Below, piece after piece: positions 15,643-29,450 of a DNA stretch of 64,000 nucleotides. The notes beneath the pieces are model-generated. The model had not been told where the DNA came from, ran no database searches, and saw nothing but the letters and a program-made list of their open reading frames with translations. The number at the start of each line of letters is the position of its first letter. Within the stretch, counting starts at the first letter, position 1. Position numbers and translations under genes: made by a program. Where the stretch lies: assembly GCA_025449115.1 (NCBI GenBank), contig JAHLKC010000058.1:124001-188000 (forward strand), read 5' to 3'. Source of the DNA: Chytridium lagenaria (taxonomy: Eukaryota > Chytridiomycota > Chytridiomycetes > Chytridiales > Chytridiaceae).

Positions 15643-18570
15643 CTAAACTCTCTTTGGTCCCTTGGGACCTTCCGCAACACTTGCCACACTTCCTACAGAT
15701 GACCGTCCAATCAAGTCCTCTAACCCAAACGAAATAGGCGTTTGAGGTTTTGCCAGAATCGGGGCTGGTTTTGGTGCAGTCGCTGATGCTGCTAAGAGCT
15801 CAGCTTGGGTCGGTGGAAGGGCCAAAGATTTTGCTGGTGCACGACTTGACGAAGTCGGTTCTGGAGCATTGTTTGTCTTCCATCTTTTCCCACCAAGCTC
15901 GCACAAATTCATGGCAGCGGCTGCGAGTTCCTCCATCCTCCCTTGAGCGTGTGGAGTGGGTTTGGGGTCAATGATAGACTCCCATGGTGAAGATGCTGCT
16001 TGCAGAAGTGACGCAACGTTGGCAGTGGGTTTGGGGGTTGATCTGACGGCTGGTTTGGCGACTGGCTGGGCAATTCGAGCTGACGGAGTGGGTTTGGAGG
16101 ATTGATGTGCAGCCTGAGCTGAAGGATTAGGTTTGGAGGGTTGAAGTGTTTGTGTTTGTTGGAACTGAGGTACAAGTGGCTGCAGCACGGCGAGTAGATC
16201 AGCGATCGTTGATGGTGGAGGTGCGACTATTCCTTTAGGTAGGATGTCATTAACGGAATTCACCTGGTCTCTATTCGGTGATGGGATATCGACCGCCATA
16301 GAAATATTCTCGTAATCATCTACAAGCTCTTCCTGTCTTTGTTCTTGTACAGCTTGAGGTGCATCTGCATTTTGCGGAGTCACCGGGGATACGGTATTGG
16401 GTGTTTGCTGTTGACTTTGGGAAGCAAGCAGAGACGTGACATTCGCTGTTTGCTGTTGCCTAGCTTGATTCGTGGCTGCACTTTGCAAAGCGAAAATGGA
16501 TGTAGCGTTCGGTGTTTGCTGTTGCGCGGCATGATTTGCACGTAGGGATGCCACGTGTGATGTTTGTTGTTGCCCAGCTTGATGTTCGGCTACACTTTGT
16601 GAAGCAAGCAGAGAAGTAACATTCGGTATTTGCTGATGTCCAGATTGAGACGCGGCCGAATTATGTGAAGCCAGCAAGGCTGCGATGTATGGCGTTTGCT
16701 GTTGCCCGGCTGGACCTGCGGCTGCATGTTGTGACGTAAGCAGAAGCTGTTTTCCAGATTGAGACGCGACCGCGTTATTTGAAGCCAACAAGGCTGTGGC
16801 GTAAGGTGTTTGACGTTGCGCAGCTTGGTTTACGCCTGAACTTTTAAAAGCAAGCAAGGATGTGAAGCTCGGTGTTTTCTGCTGACCAATTTGATTTGCA
16901 CCTGCGTTTGATGTAGAAAGTAGAGACGATACGGCCAATCTTCGCTTTTGTCCATCTTGATTTACAGATTCTACCGGTGTTTGCTGTGCATCTGCTGTGC
17001 CGCCGCATTTTTTTGATGCCAGCAGAGCTGTAACGTATTCTGCTGAAGGTGTGACATTTACTGATGGCAAGACAGGCTTGATGCCGTACTGCCTTAAATT
17101 TGAGGCATTGGGGCTGAAGTAGGAATTTTGAAGGTCGGCGAGACTAAATTGGAGATTGTTATGCTCGCAGGCCGTACTGGCTTCTTTGGAAAGCCCTTGA
17201 CACCATGTGTTCACTCCGGGAATAGAGCCCAAGTTTTTAAACTTTTCGCAAAAGAGTTCAACATGAGGACCCCTGAAGATTATGGGTAAGTATTCACTAC
17301 AAGATATGACGAGAAGCTTACATGTATACCAACATATGCGCGTCATCTGGAAAGACTTTCTCTCTCCCAGTAGGCGTTGAGAATATAATCTTATGATGGA
17401 AAAAGCAATGCGGGTAATTTAAGACCCTCACAAACCAAGACTGTCCCAAATCCACTTTCAATAGGATACAGGCCGATCTAATAGTCTTTGCAAAAAACTG
17501 ATCCTCTGCATGAAAAAACCATTTGGCTTGTTTAGAAGAGCCTGCGGGGTTGATGCCGTACGGTGGCGATAACCATATATCACCAAACCATGGCTTAGAG
17601 AGACCGTCGACCGATTCGTCATAGAAGGTTACTGCTAGTTGGTTTTGGTGATTTGCGTTGGCGTGTGCGGTGGTGGCGGGGTCGAGGTCGAACGATTCCT
17701 TCCCGATTACTTGTTTGGCGAGGGTGATAATGTGTTTAGGTGTGTAGATTTCACTGTTAAGGTCCGTAAAAGAGACACCAGATACTGGAAACAAATTGAA
17801 GTGCGTTATTTATCTTTTCTTCCTTTGCTCTAGCTAAAGAACCAGAATCCTTACCAAACTTTGCTGTTGTCGAGAAAACCTGCTCCTCCGTCACGGGTTG
17901 CCCAGATCTACACACCTCTGCCCAAATAAATCGTCTTATCTCCGGCGGAAACTTATGCAGAGACCGAATGTGAGAGATATTGATGGGCACTGGGAGCTTT
18001 GGATCTTCCGCCAACGACGCATAAACGCTCCTATATAATGCGAATTAAACCGTAAGTTTTCAAATATACAACTTACGCTGAACACAGATAGGTGTTGGTG
18101 GTGCGTCTGTTAAACGCAAACTTGTTAGATGCATATATATAAATATTCTTCTCCGGTTCTATTGTTGTGTCAGTAACAGTCTTTTGACATCCTATGAGAA
18201 AAACAAACATCCACCATCACACACCATACATCCTCGCATCCTCAATCTCCCTCAAAGCCGCGGCTACAAAATCATCAGCCTACACTTTATAGAGCATATC
18301 CTCACCAACAAGGAAAAACTTCCCAGTTCCCAAATGCTCTCTAATGACAGCCTCCAACTCTTCAATCCTTGAACCATACTGGATAGCCACAGGCGTCGGT
18401 CGTCCGTCAATGAGAATGGTCCCCGAGGGTCCTGCCGTATCCTCCATCCGTCGAATCTGTTTTGGTTCCTTTGGTCTTGCTGGCGCTGAAGACTGTGTCT
18501 TGCGCTTCAATGGAACCGCTGCGAATGGTGCAACAGTCTTTGATGCACTCGGAAGCAGTTGGTTCTGCAT
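15643..18570 (-). CDS. Phage Dam-like DNA methyltransferase domain with SPPY motif, N-terminal helical region and Gln-rich repeat tail
   Basis: Inferred exons (5' to 3'): 18570-18225, 18191-18077, 18030-17855, 17784-17322, 17272-15643. All four introns are GT-AG and phases agree, giving about 909 codons. Exon 1 has an in-frame TAG at 18280-18282. Residues from about 18000 down (HIRSLHKFPPEIRRFIWAEV, then SGQPVTEEQVFSTTAKF) recall the helix-turn-helix part of ParB/KorB-like proteins. Next comes a domain like phage N-6-adenine methyltransferases (Pfam Dam type): YTPKHIITLAKQVIG, FDLDPATTAHANANH, GLSKPWFGDIWLSPPYG, and near its end DDAHMLVYMGPHVELFCEKF. The catalytic tetrapeptide is SPPY, where N6A enzymes usually have D/N-PP-Y/F and many N4-cytosine enzymes have SPP-Y/F. 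The tail is Gln/Ala/Ser/Pro-rich with tandem repeats. A possible 5' exon (18853-18773, MFERPQRNAVAESQ) would join in phase at 18564. Target base and activity are inference. Confidence 0.72.
16360..17040 (-). repeat. Degenerate tandem protein repeat in the methyltransferase tail
   Basis: About nine to ten imperfect copies of roughly 24-28 residues with the core QQTPxxxSLLAS followed by xxAxxxQAGQ (for example QQIPNVTSLLASQSVAEHQA and QQTPYIAALLASHNSAASQS). Copies vary in length and some are truncated (LLLTSQHAAAGPAG). In DNA the unit shows as recurring tgttgctgttg-type blocks on the plus strand. It is expected to be disordered or a low-affinity interaction region. Confidence 0.8.
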
Positions 18571-19399
18571 CAATGAGGAAGGAATGTGTGGGAATGGTGG
18601 GTGAGTGAATGTTGTCGTTGGCCCGACAAAATCGTTTGTTTGGGCCCGTGTCGGAACTCGAAATAAATATCAAAATTGTAAACATAGATTGACGCTGTTG
18701 AAGTCCACCCGATCCATCGTAAGCGCAACGTCGACCTATTTCTGAATCATCATCTCTTACACACCCTTTTACCTCGACTCGCTTACCGAAATAGAGACAG
18801 ACTCCTCCTCCCTGCGACTCGGCGACGGCGTTCCTTTGGGGCCTTTCAAACATGTTATGGTCAGGTTCTTTCAAAACTATCTCCTTGAACACGGCAAAAA
18901 TGGTCGTAAATCTACGAAACACGGTCCTATCGTCATGAGCGAGTTGTGTCTCTTTGGTTGTTTTCTAGTTTCTATTCCACATCCTTCTTCCTTTCCTTTT
19001 CTTCAATGCCGCATCGAAGTCCCATTTTTCAAAGATATTTGAATTATGTGGGTCAATGTCCAGTTCGAGGGTGGTTTAGGTATCGAAACCAACAGCTGGA
19101 AATGCGGCATGCTTTTGTTTTTCTGTCTTTTGCTCTTTGTGAATATTTGTTTGAAAAAAAACACATTCAGCAGCTTAAAAGATAAAAACGTAACGGTAGA
19201 AAAACGTTAAAGGCGGAAAACAGGTTGTGTAAGGTAAACAAACAATTTAAAAAAGCCAGTTTAAAGAACAAGATCATGACGAAATGGAGATCAGAGTGAA
19301 AGGAAGCGTTTGGTATCCAAAACAAAAAATAGCCTTTGCCTCTACTATCTTCTCCAATCTAAAAGTACAACAAAATATGTAAAAGGGATATACACAAAA
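18571..19399. other. Region between methyltransferase and GATA genes
   Basis: Contains the candidate upstream exon 18773-18853 (minus) of the methyltransferase gene and otherwise AT-rich sequence without a recognisable protein. It probably also holds the 3' UTR of the GATA factor. Confidence 0.45.
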
Positions 19400-22300
19400 T
19401 TACGGGGAAAAAATAAGGACACTATCGCATTTACTAAGTTTAAACATCAATCTCTCACCTCCCCATATCACCCCCTCTCTCTGCTGTTCTCTCGTAATCC
19501 TATCATGCATCTCGCGCATCCTCACCATCTGCTCTTGGGTCTGTCTCATATGCTCAGACATATCTACTCCTGGCGGTCTCCACGCAGCAGGCGCAGGCGC
19601 ATGCACAGGCACATTCAGCAACCCAAACGTTTGTGACGAGGACACAGGCGACGAAGCCGTCGGAGTAGATGGAGGAGGTCCAGGCGGAGGCATCCCTATG
19701 ATGTTCCTCTTCTTTCTTGGCTTCTGACAGAAGAACCCGTCTCACCCTCCACGTCCTCCGCTTTACTCACAACTCCAGCACTCCCAGGAATAGCCGTAGC
19801 AGCCATCACCGCTCTCTGCCTTTTCCTGCCCGCAACTACACCACCGGAACCCCCAGCAGCTGCACCTCCGGGGGCGCTAACCTGTCGATGTTCACGATGC
19901 AACTTGTGGTAAAGCCCGCAAGCATTGCAAAGCGGTCGTCCTGCCTCGTCTCTTCTCCAGAGTGGGGTGGTACGTGTGCGGCAATTAGTGCACTCGACAC
20001 TAGGAATCTCGACATTGGCGGAACCGAGAGGAGGCAGCGGAGTGCCGTCTTTGGCGACACCGGCGGACGTACGGGAATGATGGTTGGGGCGGAAACTGCG
20101 GGGCCGGTTTTTATTGTGGAGTTTAAGGCTAAATATTCAAAAAAGGATAAAATGCCGTTAAGTAAATAAATCGGAAAAGGCGTAAAAAAAAGTGGACTCA
20201 CTAAAGTCCACAAGCATTACACAAAATGCAGTTGTCCAACCCCCTCCTCCAAAGAGGCGTACTTCTCTCGCCACAATTTGAACAACATAAGTCTAAGCCG
20301 GCGCCAGCACCAACCGGCCCGGTCGACGGTGCAGGTGCAGGTGCAGATGCACTTGGTCCCGCCGGAGGAGCAGAAACGGTCACAGAACCCGGTGCTTCTG
20401 GTGCACACCCAGAGGGTGCTGCCGTCGCGGCTCCCAAGAACTTTCTACGTTTGGTAATGATGGGCCTGGGTGCCTGAGCACCCGCATTGTCTGAAACAGG
20501 TGCAACTGAATTTTGCGGGTTGGATGGAGGCGATGCAGCAGCTGAGGATATGGGTGACGCATCCCGAGACCAGGGATGGCGGTGGAGAAGACGGACGCGA
20601 CGGACCTGCCCCAGCAGGCGCGGTGGGAACCAATGCAGCATCTCTCTCATCAATGTGACTGCGAACAATTAGAGCAAATCATGGTGCAACACAGCAGGGG
20701 ATTCCCTCATCGAAGTCTGTTGTTGGGACTGATATTGATGGTGATATCTGTGCTGCGGTTGATTAAAATTCTGGTATTGATGCTGTTGTTGTTGTTGTTG
20801 CTGTTCTTGTTGAGATGGTTGGGGTTTGATGTTGATGTTGGTGATGTTGGTGGCTGCTGCTCTTGCTGATGACTCTGAGTATCATGCATGACATGAGCAT
20901 CCTCTTGCGGTAGAGAAGCTCCCAGCATTAGCAGCATACAGGCCGCAACGTAATTTGATATATCCATTGATAACAAAAGTTCTGTAAGCTCTCTTCACAA
21001 TAGTGGATCCGATGGCATGCGAAGAGGAGGCGCAGCGTCGCTGTAAATAGGCCCCAACGATCCCGCAGCAGTCAAAACCCCACCATGACCATTCATCCCG
21101 GCAAACACGTCAACAAAATCAATGGCGTCGCTGTTGTTAACGGAAAGAGGTAGAGGGAGTTGCGCGGAACGCATCATTCCTGCCGAGGTATCACCAAGCC
21201 CTGATATCATGGAGCCTTCGTCATCGTGAAGGAGCATAGAGTCTAACTGATCTCCTCCGTTCATATCTTCGTGTGCTTGTGAATCTAATGGCTGATGCTG
21301 TTGGGGTAAAACACCATCATATGAAAATCCAAAGGACGGAGGAGAAAGGTCGGCAGGGTTCAGGACCTGATCTCCTTGTTGAGTGTAAACCAAATCTCCC
21401 AATTCTGGAGCATAGATTTGACTAAAAGGCATCTCCACTTGCGGATCGAAAAAGTGAACATGCCCGGCATGCTGGTGTCGATTATATAATGTTAGCGTGG
21501 ATTGCCGAACGGCTGCCTCCAAAAGGGCAGAGTTGGCAACATCATCGTTGACGACGTTTGATGGAGGTGAGGGGTTCGTGGGCCCAAGCGCCGCGGCGGG
21601 GGAGGCTGTTTGGGAGATAGGCTCGCAGAGAGCAGCAGCCTCCAAAAACGAAGACGGACCCGCCTCCTGAGAATGGTGGTTGTAATGGTGAATCGGTGGC
21701 TGAAGCTGCTGGGGTGGACGCTGTTTTGGGAGGGGACGTGAGTGAGCCCGTAGAGTTTTCGCTGACGCATTAGGGTTTGACGTTGAAACATGAGTCCGTG
21801 GGTGGGAGATATGCTGGGAGGCATGATGGTGCTGATTGTGGTGATTCCGATGCTGCTGTTGCTGGATTGCGTGGACAGGGTCGATATGCTGGGACGGCGC
21901 CACATTCTCTGATTCCACAATATCCTCCATCGCATTGACATACTCGTGGTCGTATTGCTGCTGTTGTTGCTGTTGCTGTTGCTGTTGCTGTTGTTGCTGG
22001 GGAGCTGGTACTTTACGATTGTGCGGGGGAGCTATGGGCAAAAGTACGGGGTTGGACGTGAAAAGAGTGAGATCGCTGGAAGAAGGTCTTCGCGGCTGCT
22101 GTGATGATTGTTGTGGCTGTTGGTGAGGCGGTGATGGGGACGGAGACCGAATTGGGTTTTGGATATTAGTACATCCTTGGTTATTAGAATGAAGCTGCTG
22201 GTAATGATGGTGGGTTGCGGCTCTGTGGACAGCAGCTTGACTATCGACATCCATACCGCCGAGAGGAGACCCAGCGGCACTCGATATTGTATTTACTGCA

Positions 22301-22514
22301 GCATCGAGCCTAGGTCGAAGCAGTCTTGAGGCTGCAACCGCAGGAGACGTCGAAGAAACTTCCGTTTCGTTGAGCTTCTTTGTTGTTCTGCAAGCACGCC
22401 GCCTGAACTGAGGCTGGGTCATCTTTTTTGACGACACCATGGCCTGGTGAAGATGCCATAAACGCCATGAAAGGTTCTCCAAACGACTACCGTGCTCCAG
22501 AGCATCCTTCACCT
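19400..22514 (-). CDS. GATA-type transcription factor with two zinc fingers, AreA-like N-terminal motif and poly-Gln
   Basis: Sequence-specific nuclear regulator. Near the N-terminus, after an acceptor at 22514, [20 protein letters not shown] matches the motif at the start of fungal AreA/NRE nitrogen regulators (DUF1752). A long Gln/His/Pro/Ser-rich region follows, with 15 consecutive Gln. Two class IV fingers lie near the C-terminus. The first is [20 protein letters not shown] ending CNACGL (20300-20205), and its basic tail [14 protein letters not shown] is encoded after an intron (donor GTGAGT). The second is [20 protein letters not shown] ending [16 protein letters not shown] (about 19990-19885). 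Both are C-x2-C-x17or18-C-x2-C. The basic stretch QKPRKKRN follows in another frame and the C-terminus is Pro-rich. Frame interruptions occur near 20995, 20680 and 19735. The first exon upstream of 22514 is unresolved. One finger is typical of AreA; two fingers are typical of SreA-like iron regulators, so the physiological role is open. Confidence 0.85.
21955..21999 (-). repeat. CAG/CAA repeat encoding poly-glutamine
   Basis: A pure run of CAG/CAA codons (read as ctg/ttg on the plus strand) coding for 15 glutamines inside the GATA factor, between a Pro/Arg-rich stretch and [14 protein letters not shown]. Interspersed CAA codons should limit slippage. Confidence 0.95.
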
Positions 22515-24229: not shown

Positions 24230-27200
24230 TTAAACCATTGCACTACCTTGCGCTTTTTTTTTTACGTCTCCAACCACCATCGCTTCTGCCGCAAACGTTA
24301 GCCAATACCCGCATCGACCCATCGTACTGATTGCCAGCCGTTCAAAAAGCCATTTACTCGCCCTGGCCAGCAGAGGCGCGATATTGCGCAAAGATCTACC
24401 CCCACTCGCGATCTTGGTATGTGCACATGAACCCACAAAAGGTATATTGCAACAAAGAATGCGCGTCCAACACTTGACTCCACAGTGACGTGCCTAATTC
24501 TTCAGCTAGATCCGCGACAGCCTCTGAGACAAGCTCTGGACGGGAACACACTGGCTCAACAGCGTGAGTTCGAGAAAGCAATACCATGATGAGTCGCGCT
24601 AAAGTAGGGGTCGATCCAACCATAAAGAATTGCGGTCCCGATACACGCGTATGAAGCTCCTCAAATACGGAATACGCAAGAGTCGCGTTGTCAAGGCGAT
24701 TTAGCAGAAAACTCTCAATCAAAATGTAACTTGCTAGCCCCATAGTCCACACAGGGCTTTTTACAGCCATTTCCTTGATCAGCGGCATGGTATCTCCCAA
24801 AGTATCGTGAACTTGCCCAAGAAGAAAGTTGGGCAATATAAGAAAACCCTTTGACTTTAAACTCCATCGGAATTCGTCGCTTTGTCCACACATTTAAAGA
24901 AACTGTGCAGGCTGCTACACTTTCCCTTATATCAACTAAATACATGGCGAGATTATGCGCATGCGTGTTGAAATGGACGCAATCGTTTCTTCTTCTAAAA
25001 ATTTGCGGCATTCCGTGCTCCGTAGAGTAATTTTTCGGCCAAGTCCGTTCAAGGCCCTAGATCTCATTAAAACTCGACCGCGATCATCAAGGAGAAGAAC
25101 CAAAAGGATGGCCATGATTGACACCTCTCAATAGAGGACCACCAGCATAAGAGCGAGGCCGTAAACCATCTTATGCCTCTCGATTTCAGGATCAAAAATA
25201 AACGACCCCATCAGCCCTGCCATTGCATATTGAAGGCTCGGTGTTTTCTTATATCGCGAGAAGTATACGTAATGTTCTTTACATCTCTCCTGCCCCTTCG
25301 CGTCTTTCTCCACAATACACCAAACTGAATTAGCAATTTCAACGTTAGCGATGTCGCTTCTTTGACAGTGCTCGGCCAAGCCAGAGAATGAGCTTTCAAG
25401 CCCATAATCCCGTACTGCTGAGTTTTCTTGTATGGTGAGGATATTTAAGGATGACCACGCAAGAATTCCAAAGGCCTCGCCCTCAAAACTGCATCCAAAA
25501 CTTTGGTGTCCAAATCCGTTATTAACGATTTCGCTTTTCTCAATAAATTCACAAATCTCCTTTAACGTACACGTGCTCTCATACAAAAGGCCATCAAACA
25601 TCAATGAAATCCTGCAAAATCAACACATCATATCAGCCAAAGAGGAAAAAAATCGTGGATGTTTTACCCAAACTGCACATTCCAGTATATCAACTTGGGC
25701 ACACATCCTGACCTCCAATAATGATAACACGTCTGAGGCATCGCAGCCTTCCTTTCCGCCTCCCCCTTAATCATTTCGTACCGTTCAGCCATCTGCAAAT
25801 GCATAGTCTGTCGGGACGCCATAGAAATGCTCTCGTAAATGGCATTACGGATCGTGATATGACGAAAAGAAGTGCTCTCAAAAAGATCGTCTGCAGATAA
25901 TGAAGGATCTTTTGCGATAAACCCATACGTATCTTCTGATAGAACGATTTCGCGAACTTTAGTCACGGTCAAGTTTTGGTCGTTTAGAAGGAACACGACG
26001 TCGACGAGAGAAAATAGTGGCCGAGGATTGAGGCAACTTTGAGAATATCTTGAAAACCAGGGTCCAGCCTAAAGATGGTTAGCCTAGAAAATTCCTTAAA
26101 TGACTATAAAAATATTACCCGTCCATTTGAGCTATGATGATGGACTCAACTTTTTCTGAAAGGATGTTTTCAAAAGATTGCGCACTCCAAAATCCAGCGT
26201 CCATGCAAAGATTCTTGCGAGCACGGCCTTTTGTGTCGAAATGATGTTCTTTCATCCTAGAGATTAATGTGTCCAATTGTAGCAGGTTGCCCCCTGTTTT
26301 CTTATGAATGGCTGGAAGGAAAACACAGTTATCAGTGACAGGGCAGGTATAACAATTAAATATCATACTTACAAACACAAAGCTCATCCTCGACAGATCT
26401 GACGTTCAAAGATTTTATCTGTGTAAACGTTAGTATCGGTTTCAATTGTGAACAGAAGTGGAACGGACAATATATGCTTTGATGTCTGCTGGACTTGCAC
26501 CAGTAAGTTCGACTGTTTGATCCAGCGCAATATTTTCTATCGCCCTTCCATTTTCAAGGGGCCGTGAAAAGATGTACAAGCACACCTAACAATACACAGC
26601 CATAATTTAGATAATCTACAGAAAAGATCTGGGCAAAAGACGATACAGGTGATAGTTTGCCTACGTAGACTTACGCGTGTGGAAGTTGACGCAAACATTT
26701 ACGATAGCTTCAATGGATCCCGAATCAATCCACTACTCTCAAATATCAGTGAATACGCCGCAAAAATCGCACTCACCTGAAAATCATCCAATATAATCGC
26801 AATTCTATCTTCTTCAACCACATTCAACAGAATTTTTCCTACCAGCGACGCCAATATCGACATTTTTGAGTCCCAAACTTCCTTGACCGATGCATCATCG
26901 TTGACGCTTCCCGGAAACAACCACTCAAGGACAAGGTTGAGGTAGGAGCGGTCCTCGTTGACTTTATCGAGGAGATTGCCGACAAAGCGGCTGGCAGTAT
27001 CGTAGGCGATGTTAGAGACATCCTCAAGTTTTTCAAAAATGTGAAAAAGGTTTATAAAGAGGGTGCGGAATCACCGAGTGGTCTGGTTATTTAAATAGAG
27101 AAGGTTTTAGTAAAGATGAGAGGTGAGGTAGATTCTAACATTGTTTGATCCAAATCGGCACCTCTCGCGTAGCTTAATATTAAATTCAGTCAGTACGGAT

Positions 27201-29450
27201 GACTGTAAAGATATAAAAAAATACACGCACCAGTGCATAACATAACGGTTTCTCATATAGCTCTGCAAATGCATCAATAAACTCGTCTTCCCAATTCCGC
27301 TAGCTCCCTGGATCAATACAATATGTTTCTTATCTCTGTCTAAAATCCATTCATCAAACCCCGCTTTCACCCTTTGCCATTCCTGCGTGTTCCCAATAAT
27401 CCCCTTTTCCATCTGGACAGATGTATTCGAGTCCATGTCTTCGCTTATCCCCCATATCTGCAAGGACTTGTTCTTCCCTTTCACTTTAACTCTTCCTAAG
27501 TCACGGCATTTACAGATTTGTTTGACTAACGCATAGGTTCGTGGTTCGATGATGATGCGACATTCTTCTGATTGGGTTCCCAAAAGCCTTGCGGCAGTGT
27601 TGAAGACCTCGCCTGAAACGTTAGATATTATTGACGGATGTTTTCACCTAGTAGCCCCGCTTCCTTTCTATCATCAACTCCTAAAGTTGTGAATAAAATG
27701 TCACCTGTCGCGATTGACACCACAAAGTTATTTCTGTCTTGACCTTCAATTTTTTCCGCGGCTTTTACAAAAGCTTTTGCGGCTTTTACGCAATTAATGC
27801 TACATGTTCCATTCGAGTATGGCTTTTTATGGTAAGATAACGAGACATGTTATAAACGTACTGGAAGTCCAAAGCAACCAAGCAGGGTATAACCCTTATC
27901 ATCAACTACAAAATAAATAAAAATGCCGAACAAAGGAGACCGTACCTGAAAACTGCTGAAAAACACCTTGAAATTCATCCAATTTATCTAGAAAAACCTC
28001 AATGACCTTTTGCATCATCCTCAACGTCGTCTCCACCAAAACCTTTACAAAGATGACATTAAGCGTGCGGTACTCGCTTTTGAATTTTAAAATTTTGCCG
28101 TTGAATGCTTTCGATTGTTTTCCGTCAGAGCTCTTCGATCGATTAACTACGTCCACTTTCACCGATCCCAAAACTCTGTACAATAGCGATTGATTGATAA
28201 ACAGACGTAGTAGATTCAAATTAAGGGTTTTATGAAGTGGTTCCTTCAATCGGTACGGTTGGGTTTTGCTGTCGGGCGACGGATGTTGTAAAACGCTTCG
28301 ATCTCAGAAATGTTGAGAATGTTATTGCGATTAGATTTAAACGAGATAGAGAGGAATTTCGCCATTTCGTCGGATACCCCCATATGACCTTTTTTTTTGA
28401 CTATTAACGTCACGAAAAAAAACAAACAGAAAATGTACCTTCTTTCGCTGCTTCAAGAAGATCCCTAAATGCCTCAACGCGTCGCCTACGATCGCGTAGT
28501 CTAGGCGTTTCGACAATGACCCAACAATGGCGTGAGAAAACTCACCACATGTCACCGCAATGTGGAGTCCAAGGGCTGTTTGGCCGTCGCGTATCTGCGA
28601 CGTAACAGGACGAGAAAGAGCGGAATTTGTGGGTAAGGTTTGGACGGCGTCTGTCCAACGCTTTACGTCGATCGGGTGACTACCTAGGCTTAAGAGGATT
28701 TGGGAGCAACAGAGTGTAGCGCGTTCGCAAATGGAGTTATGGGGTTCGGTTGGCTTTGCAGCAGAAAATGTGACGAGGATGGCGTCACCTTGTTTGGATT
28801 GGTCAAATATAAGGAGGGTAATGGGCATACCTAAAAACTAGAGAGATGTTAGGCCTTTAACAGCTTTTTAAATGATTCTACCTTCACGATATCTCCGCCA
28901 TGATCCAGCACGACGGATGCAATCTGTTAAAGAGAGAGGTTGTAGTGCTGGAAAGGAGGAAAGTAAGTTCACCCACCTTCGCTAAATACTCTCCAACTGC
29001 TCACTTAGCAGTTCAGAGCTGACTTTCCCAAAAATCGGCCTGGGGAATGAGCGTTAGCATGTAATTTACATCCTTCATCCGTGTGTGCGTCAACGATCCA
29101 ACTCACAAGATACGAAGTTAAACTGCTGTAACCCGTAACATCGATGATCGCCTACAGATTACTTCAGACCACTACCGCTGGAGAATTTCACTAACCACCG
29201 CCATGAACGCATTTTCCACAAAGGATGCCCATCTCCAACTCCTCCATCAACGCACTCCTCCTTACTCTATCCGCTAAGACATCTCTCACATGCTTCGCGA
29301 CATATGAGGAGAGCTGATCCTGCATGGCACACACTAAGAAAGGAAATCTCACTTTCATGGTGATCTCTCCGTTCACCGCTGGACTTATTCATGGACAAAT
29401 TGACACCAAAACTTAACGGGAACTGGGTGATCAAAGGCTTTCAGCGCCAT
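24230..29450 (-). CDS. Soluble-adenylyl-cyclase-like protein (class III cyclase plus ATPase and helical repeats)
   Basis: Architecture matches ADCY10/sAC enzymes. Cyclase half 1 (about 29160-28330): AIIDVTGYSSLTSYL carries the first metal Asp, and DIVK-FLGDAILVTF, joined across two introns, carries the second. LHIAVTCGEF and RLDYAIVGDALRHLG follow. Half 2 (about 28250-27420): EYRTLNVIFVKV, DDKGYTLLGCFGLP, VVSIATGDILF, VFNTAARLLG. A P-loop NTPase follows: IIGNTQEWQRV, LIQGASGIGKTSLL (Walker A, about 27330-27270) and IAIILDDFQ (Walker B, about 26790). The C-terminal 900 or so residues are helical repeats (CYHYWRSG, EEYR-like segments) ending at stop 24230. About 20 introns and several indels occur, for example near 29230 and 29000. 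The putative ATG at 29450 lies 1 nt downstream of the MRM1 stop. In other organisms sAC makes cAMP in response to bicarbonate; activity here is inferred. Confidence 0.85.

Follow-up and report, generated by a model that had tools for sequence, protein, structure and literature searches.

A helix-turn-helix-Dam gene of Chytridium lagenaria and other zoosporic fungi, with probable prokaryotic ancestry and an unconserved motif IV

A gene of Chytridium lagenaria is this species' copy of a conserved protein of zoosporic fungi in which an N-terminal helix-turn-helix (HTH) domain precedes a Dam-type methyltransferase fold. With moderate confidence, we propose that the protein acts as a regulator that binds DNA, that its Dam fold is no longer catalytic, and that the gene descends from a prokaryotic HTH-Dam protein captured once, long ago. 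The computed basis is the two-domain architecture, a single fungal clade, a retained fold and DLDPA motif, and motif-IV contact positions that are not conserved. The gene was examined in a window of 64,000 nucleotides (contig JAHLKC010000058.1, positions 124,001 to 188,000), to which all coordinates refer. The initial annotation had read the SPPY motif of this gene as a possible sign of a horizontally acquired 4mC enzyme or one of altered specificity. This tempting but probably false eukaryotic 4mC writer is replaced here by a testable claim, that of an old, conserved chytrid gene which came from prokaryotes and retains the fold of a DNA methyltransferase without its catalytic residues. If the protein reads or senses rather than writes, it would be a chytrid regulator of a kind that the papers found do not describe; among the papers listed by limited title/abstract and gene-tag searches of an open-licence library, none concerned this family. 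For 44 early-diverging fungi surveyed for gene transfer, the one methyltransferase passage of the main text concerns TrmO (PMC11291939).

Gene structure and domains

A spliced nuclear gene is predicted on the minus strand, with a coding sequence at 18570-15643, six coding exons, and 884 residues (Table 1). Translation from the in-frame ATG at 18570 runs through the six exons with zero internal stops, and the five GT-AG introns are small (42, 66, 46, 70, and 49 bp), with the frame closing across them. Four phase-consistent GT-AG introns had been counted previously; the spliced nuclear gene stands, but the number is five, with the frame open throughout. The gene start had been placed at 18853. 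When the GT donor of this alternative start is joined to the acceptor before 18564, the product is out of frame and meets a stop after 74 residues, so that the 5' end of the model is provisional. Of three environmental relatives, two (P0002 and P0003) stop at the Tyr-Met at which an intron lies in the window gene, and the third reads on. The exon 6 tail is long and rich in A, S, Q, and P, and a Pfam search of 15643-17271 returned zero matches at E<=10.

Table 1. Features of the HTH-Dam gene in the window
Feature	Position	Strand	Remarks
Coding exon 1	18306..18570	-	In-frame ATG at 18570; 5' end uncertain
Intron between exons 1 and 2	18305-18264	-	42 bp, GT-AG
Coding exon 2	18225..18263	-	Protein alignment to P0001
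Coding exon 3	18077..18158	-	Holds start of conserved helix-turn-helix (NRRTTNTYLCSA)
Coding exon 4	17855..18030	-	Most of remaining N-terminal domain (NISHIRSLHKFPPEIRRFIW)
Coding exon 5	17322..17784	-	Bulk of Dam-type domain
Coding exon 6	15643..17272	-	End of Dam domain, then long tail; terminus SVASVAEGPKGPKRV-stop
N-terminal ParB-like helix-turn-helix, about residues 73-198	17855..18354	-	Exons 1-4; last dozen residues in exon 5
Dam-type domain, residues 199-361	17215..17752	-	Intron 17321-17273 inside
DLDPA motif, end of first strand	17675..17689	-	D222 invariant in both non-redundant sets (31 fungal rows, 171 prokaryotic)
Motif IV SPPY (TCG CCA CCG TAC)	17558..17569	-	Aligned with NPPY of phage and bacterial relatives

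The phage Dam-like methyltransferase domain of the initial annotation was confirmed. The segment 17324-17809 (minus strand) matches Pfam Dam (PF05869) at 7.5e-7 with 29.4 bits, just above the cut-off of 28.1, as the sole Pfam family listed at E<=10, and exon 17784-17322 matches the DNA methyltransferase family phrog_111 of PHROG at 1.2e-14. The window protein scores 24.6 bits with TIGR01712 (phage N-6-adenine-methyltransferase, equivalog), below the cut-off of 97.05, under which the bacterial relatives P0033 and P0029 also fall. When eight fungal orthologues were scanned with Pfam Dam, only P0009 was listed, at 25.6 bits, below the cut-off. A search of the 41.9-Mb genome with exon 5 matched only the exon itself.

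In the predicted structure (pLDDT 92.9, a confident model), GDIWL forms a strand, and SPPY opens the loop that follows it. Together with the alignment to the NPPY relatives, the model agrees with the earlier placement of SPPY as motif IV in the catalytic loop. Both points on which that annotation depended thus held, the profile match being significant and SPPY lying inside the catalytic loop by homology. In a viral structure library, two rows without a name rank first (E 5.7e-8), and the named rows at the top are phage N6-adenine methyltransferases (e.g., E 1.1e-7, TMq 0.72). Foldseek searches of the PDB with both models returned no hit at E<=0.001, the best match of the window domain being T4Dam (E 0.025), and sequence searches of the PDB found no relative, the matches at E 0.06-0.6 being unrelated proteins. 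From class I methyltransferase topology, we place the DLDPA motif in the putative SAM site. The domain resembles the phage and bacterial N-6-adenine-methyltransferases (PF05869, phrog_111, and TIGR01712) in motif order, DLDPA, and PP, whereas the N and Y of motif IV are not conserved in the fungal copies.

The conserved N-terminal region was absent from the initial annotation. A profile of this region from 11 fungal rows (P0008, P0012, P0016, and P0024 were omitted as broken or short, and others have no N-terminal part) was compared with the N termini of prokaryotic Dam relatives, namely, the 80 of 100 with at least 90 residues ahead of the Dam domain. Twelve of the 80 matched at E<=1e-3, the best at 8.1e-14; in the controls, the best of 80 reversed sequences reached 0.37 and the best of 800 shuffled sequences 0.042. 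These profile matches indicate kinship to bacterial HTH-Dam proteins, not by themselves to ParB. For some Dam relatives, the source record gives the name "ParB family chromosome partitioning protein". Pfam ParB HTH families gave no match at E<=1 in eight fungal proteins, and HTH_ParB matched the bacterial P0033 weakly (0.14). Among 3,853 frames of the collected loci, a single one reached E<=0.01 with the fungal N-terminal profile; it lies on a contig of an Actinomycetota MAG (L041), in which one frame holds both the N-terminal and the Dam part. An IMG/VR viral contig (L009) and the metagenome protein P0017 carry the same Dam domain (identical tree rows); their N-terminal regions do not match the fungal profile, and the source name of P0017 is ParB family.

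Fungal copies and their motif IV

Three environmental relatives were found by a first search. Two profile searches (the best 120 of 5,239 matches in the first; 32 listed in the second, which included fungal members) gave orthologues in at least 20 species of zoosporic fungi among the matches listed: Borealophlyctis nickersoniae, Blyttiomyces helicus, Batrachochytrium salamandrivorans, Batrachochytrium dendrobatidis, Geranomyces michiganensis, Geranomyces variabilis, Rhizophlyctis rosea, Phlyctochytrium arcticum, Phlyctochytrium planicorne, Paraphysoderma sedebokerense, Globomyces pollinis-pini, Dinochytrium kinnereticum, Spizellomyces punctatus, Powellomyces hirtus, Fimicolochytrium jonesii, Polychytrium aggregatum, Thoreauomyces humboldtii, Polyrhizophydium stewartii, Cladochytrium replicatum, and a record labelled Hompol1, which we take to be Homolaphlyctis. 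A taxonomy check of four of these species placed three in Chytridiomycota and Paraphysoderma in Blastocladiomycota; the remaining species presumably also belong among the zoosporic fungi. Fungi outside the zoosporic groups were not among the matches listed, which, in a search that depends on shared words, is no proof of absence. In the fungal set, B. salamandrivorans and Rhizophlyctis rosea are each represented by two models, and 12 rows lack a species name, so that its copies are not all independent species.

Identity to the orthologues is 54 to 74% in the N-terminal region (13 compared) and 34 to 61% in the Dam part (14 compared). The N-terminal region is the more alike of the two in 13 of 13 comparable orthologues (64% versus 34% in Paraphysoderma and 73% versus 56% in Spizellomyces); these are 13 and not 14 because Dinochytrium aligns over merely 20 N-terminal residues. 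These identities, the intact frame through six exons, and the occurrence in at least 20 species make it hardly credible that we are dealing with a decaying gene or an annotation artefact, a reading that could otherwise appeal to the low-complexity tail and to the weak Pfam scores of several members.

Motif IV was readable in 34 of the 35 fungal copies (within the set it is unreadable in P0133, where it is not covered, and in P0135, which has a gap there). It reads SPPL in 11 copies, SPPV in 4, SPPS in 3, and SPPY, SPPG, SPPH, and SPPI in 2 each, with SPPQ, SPPA, HPPN, HPPC, FPPF, FPPL, FPPT, and APPE as singletons. The first place is taken by S, H, F, or A, and never by N or D (0/34); at the fourth there are 14 kinds of residue, with Y, F, or W in 3 of the 34. 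In contrast, among the proteins classed as prokaryotic, which are mostly metagenome proteins assigned to this class by exclusion, motif IV begins with N in 99 of 101 readable cases and is NPPY in 96. The two exceptions to N, the prokaryotic-type P0095 and P0136, read SPPY and SPPR. NPPY was also found in all 80 GTDB loci kept (the best 80 of 88), although the scan pattern permitted N/S/H and Y/L/C. Among the phage and IMG/VR rows, every one of the 24 begins with N (18 NPPY, 3 NPPF, 2 NHPF, and 1 NPPG).

Conservation was compared over 152 sites in the 31 fungal and 171 prokaryotic rows left after removal of those more than 90% identical. Site 260 changes from N (98%) in prokaryotes to S (80%) in fungi, and site 263 from Y (97%, 0.20 bits) to a mixture (3.30 bits). 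The latter is the largest loss of conservation of any site (3.11 bits, the next being 1.53), and site 263 ranks as the sixth most variable in fungi. Mean entropy over all sites is 1.45 bits in fungi versus 2.04 in prokaryotes, the prokaryotic mean being raised by a larger and broader set. On a 32-row fungal tree built without sites 260 and 263 (the trees exclude P0008, P0012, and P0133), site 263 must have changed at least 19 times, and no fewer than 4 changes are needed for the trait Y/F/W/H versus the rest. The nearest copies to that of the window on this tree come from two other Chytridiaceae, which points to Chytridiales as the probable order of the genome: the window copy (Y) is sister to P. 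planicorne (G) with support of 97/87, and D. kinnereticum (H) comes next (99/98). Each of the two SPPY copies, that of the window and one environmental copy, has an SPPH copy nearby. This counts against the reading of a released site, as some fungal lineages might retain a use for a ring residue at site 263.

These distributions bear on the 4mC reading. SPPY at motif IV favors an active N4-cytosine methyltransferase in that the bdelloid rotifer N4CMT, a tested 4mC writer captured from bacteria, uses SPPY, so that this motif can be a eukaryotic 4mC motif (PMC8885841). The two cases are also alike as prokaryotic amino-methyltransferases captured by a eukaryote; in the window family, however, SPPY is unconserved and an HTH domain is present. 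Its prokaryotic relatives, in nearly all the proteins and loci examined, are Dam-family NPPY enzymes, the Y is not shared with the sister copies (SPPG and SPPH), and N6_N4_Mtase (PF01555) did not match the window domain, for which Dam alone was listed at E<=10, nor any place in the genome in an exon-wise search in which one candidate was scored. SPPY/F is not kept among the orthologues, and the variant, when sought in other chytrid copies, was present in only 2 of the 34 fungal copies, the window's included. Because motif IV varies among orthologues, we rejected 4mC as deduced from SPPY, and an active N4-cytosine enzyme appears very unlikely. In the window copy, SPPY seems to be one of the states taken by a released site, not a 4mC signature. 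Base specificity should not be called from four residues in one species.

Ancestry of the gene

A quickly built tree of 87 Dam domains sets its 32 fungal rows on one side of a branch with an SH-aLRT value of 99. The fungal stem is long (2.27), and support beside it is weak (39); the best prokaryotic loci include Chloroflexota and an Actinomycetota MAG. The bacterial HTH-Dam proteins have both domains in the same order as the fungal protein, and because this architecture is common to both, capture of a whole prokaryotic protein is favored. The bacterial proteins in the alignment keep NPPY, whereas it is absent from the fungal copies; the window copy has, in addition, a long tail and introns. 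The best reading of these alignments and trees is a single ancient capture of a prokaryotic HTH-Dam protein, which may have been chromosomal, phage, or plasmid borne. Horizontal acquisition, raised as a possibility in the initial annotation, is supported in so far as a prokaryote-derived Dam-type domain lies in a spliced nuclear gene of a fungus that groups with chytrids.

DIRS retrotransposons, whose pol protein carries a Dam-type domain that is also detected with PF05869 (PMC3783388), were considered as another source. A whole-genome Pfam Dam search found at least two other places; it was not exhaustive, because the window's own exon went unlisted. Both matches sit among reverse transcriptase-like or recombinase-like frames, as a DIRS origin would suggest, yet none of the frames at these two loci matched the fungal or bacterial Dam profile at E 1e-3. 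The window gene carries a bacterial HTH domain, and orthologues of it were found in B. dendrobatidis and S. punctatus, both reported without DIRS-type elements (PMC3783388). A DIRS origin is therefore disfavored and, in our view, highly improbable; the DIRS domain is part of a mobile pol protein and, on present evidence, is not the source of the window gene. The two loci themselves are DIRS-like by reading of their frames. One (L001, G000:C228:6137-9457) has reverse transcriptase-like and recombinase-like frames and a Dam-like domain with INPPW, and the other (L002, G000:C109:45548-48646) has reverse transcriptase-like frames around the Dam match. Such frames occur here although two other chytrids have been reported without these elements (PMC3783388).

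Retained residues and proposed function

D222 is invariant in fungi and prokaryotes alike, and P223, A224, W253, G255, P261, and P262 are at 100% in fungi. Other positions are newly fixed or nearly so in fungi, namely, N230, S291, C350, P360, and G361 (100%) and E244 (96%). The kept and the newly fixed residues together indicate that the gene is under strong but changed constraint. SAM binding stays putative because W200, found in 98% of prokaryotic rows, has given way to L or I in most fungal ones.

The retained fold, DLDPA, and PP would also suit a family that still makes 6mA, with less strict demands on motif IV, and robust 6mA has been reported in early-branching fungi (PMC12695648). However, active Dam-type N6-adenine methyltransferases require D/N-PP-Y/F/W, and here the first contact residue is altered in all 34 copies and the fourth is highly variable. 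MT-A70 matches at four places in the genome (exon-wise search) could account for any 6mA in this species, and we regard continued 6mA methylation by this family as unlikely. The new constraint at the fungus-specific, invariant or nearly invariant N230, E244, S291, C350, P360, and G361 could instead reflect action of the Dam fold on a substrate other than a DNA base, or a role as partner subunit of another methyltransferase. Inactive partner subunits occur in MT-A70 complexes; the present analysis identified no partner or substrate for the fungal Dam fold, and this explanation seems quite doubtful.

Rather than a new DNA methylase, the protein is probably a regulator that binds DNA, because key catalytic residues are no longer conserved; the residue pattern suggests that methylation activity has probably been lost. 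By homology, the helix-turn-helix would bring the protein to DNA, and the Dam fold would keep binding SAM or SAH or act as a scaffold, base methylation being gone. The protein would then be a DNA-binding regulator, presumably located in the nucleus, with a long low-complexity tail, and the SPPY of the window copy would be one state of a site freed from catalytic constraint. More tentatively, it may be a SAM-responsive, sequence-specific regulator of transcription or chromatin in zoosporic fungi, in which the catalytic pocket, once motif IV had been released, turned into one that binds a ligand or reads DNA, its target being SAM or methylated adenine. A comparable history has been described for the fungal SBF/APSES regulators, which derive from a viral KilA-N domain (PMC4862756). 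As in the case proposed here, a phage- or virus-type DNA-binding protein was gained early in fungi, but the SBF/APSES domain is unrelated to that of the window protein, and a methyltransferase part is absent.

Directly upstream of the HTH-Dam gene, the minus strand carries a GATA zinc finger at 19699-20136 and, at 20998-22512, a GATA_AreA motif; the stretch 19699-22512 perhaps encodes an AreA-type nitrogen regulator. At higher coordinates on the same strand, 27110-27643 gave an NPHP3_N/NACHT-type NTPase match, as in a STAND-like gene.
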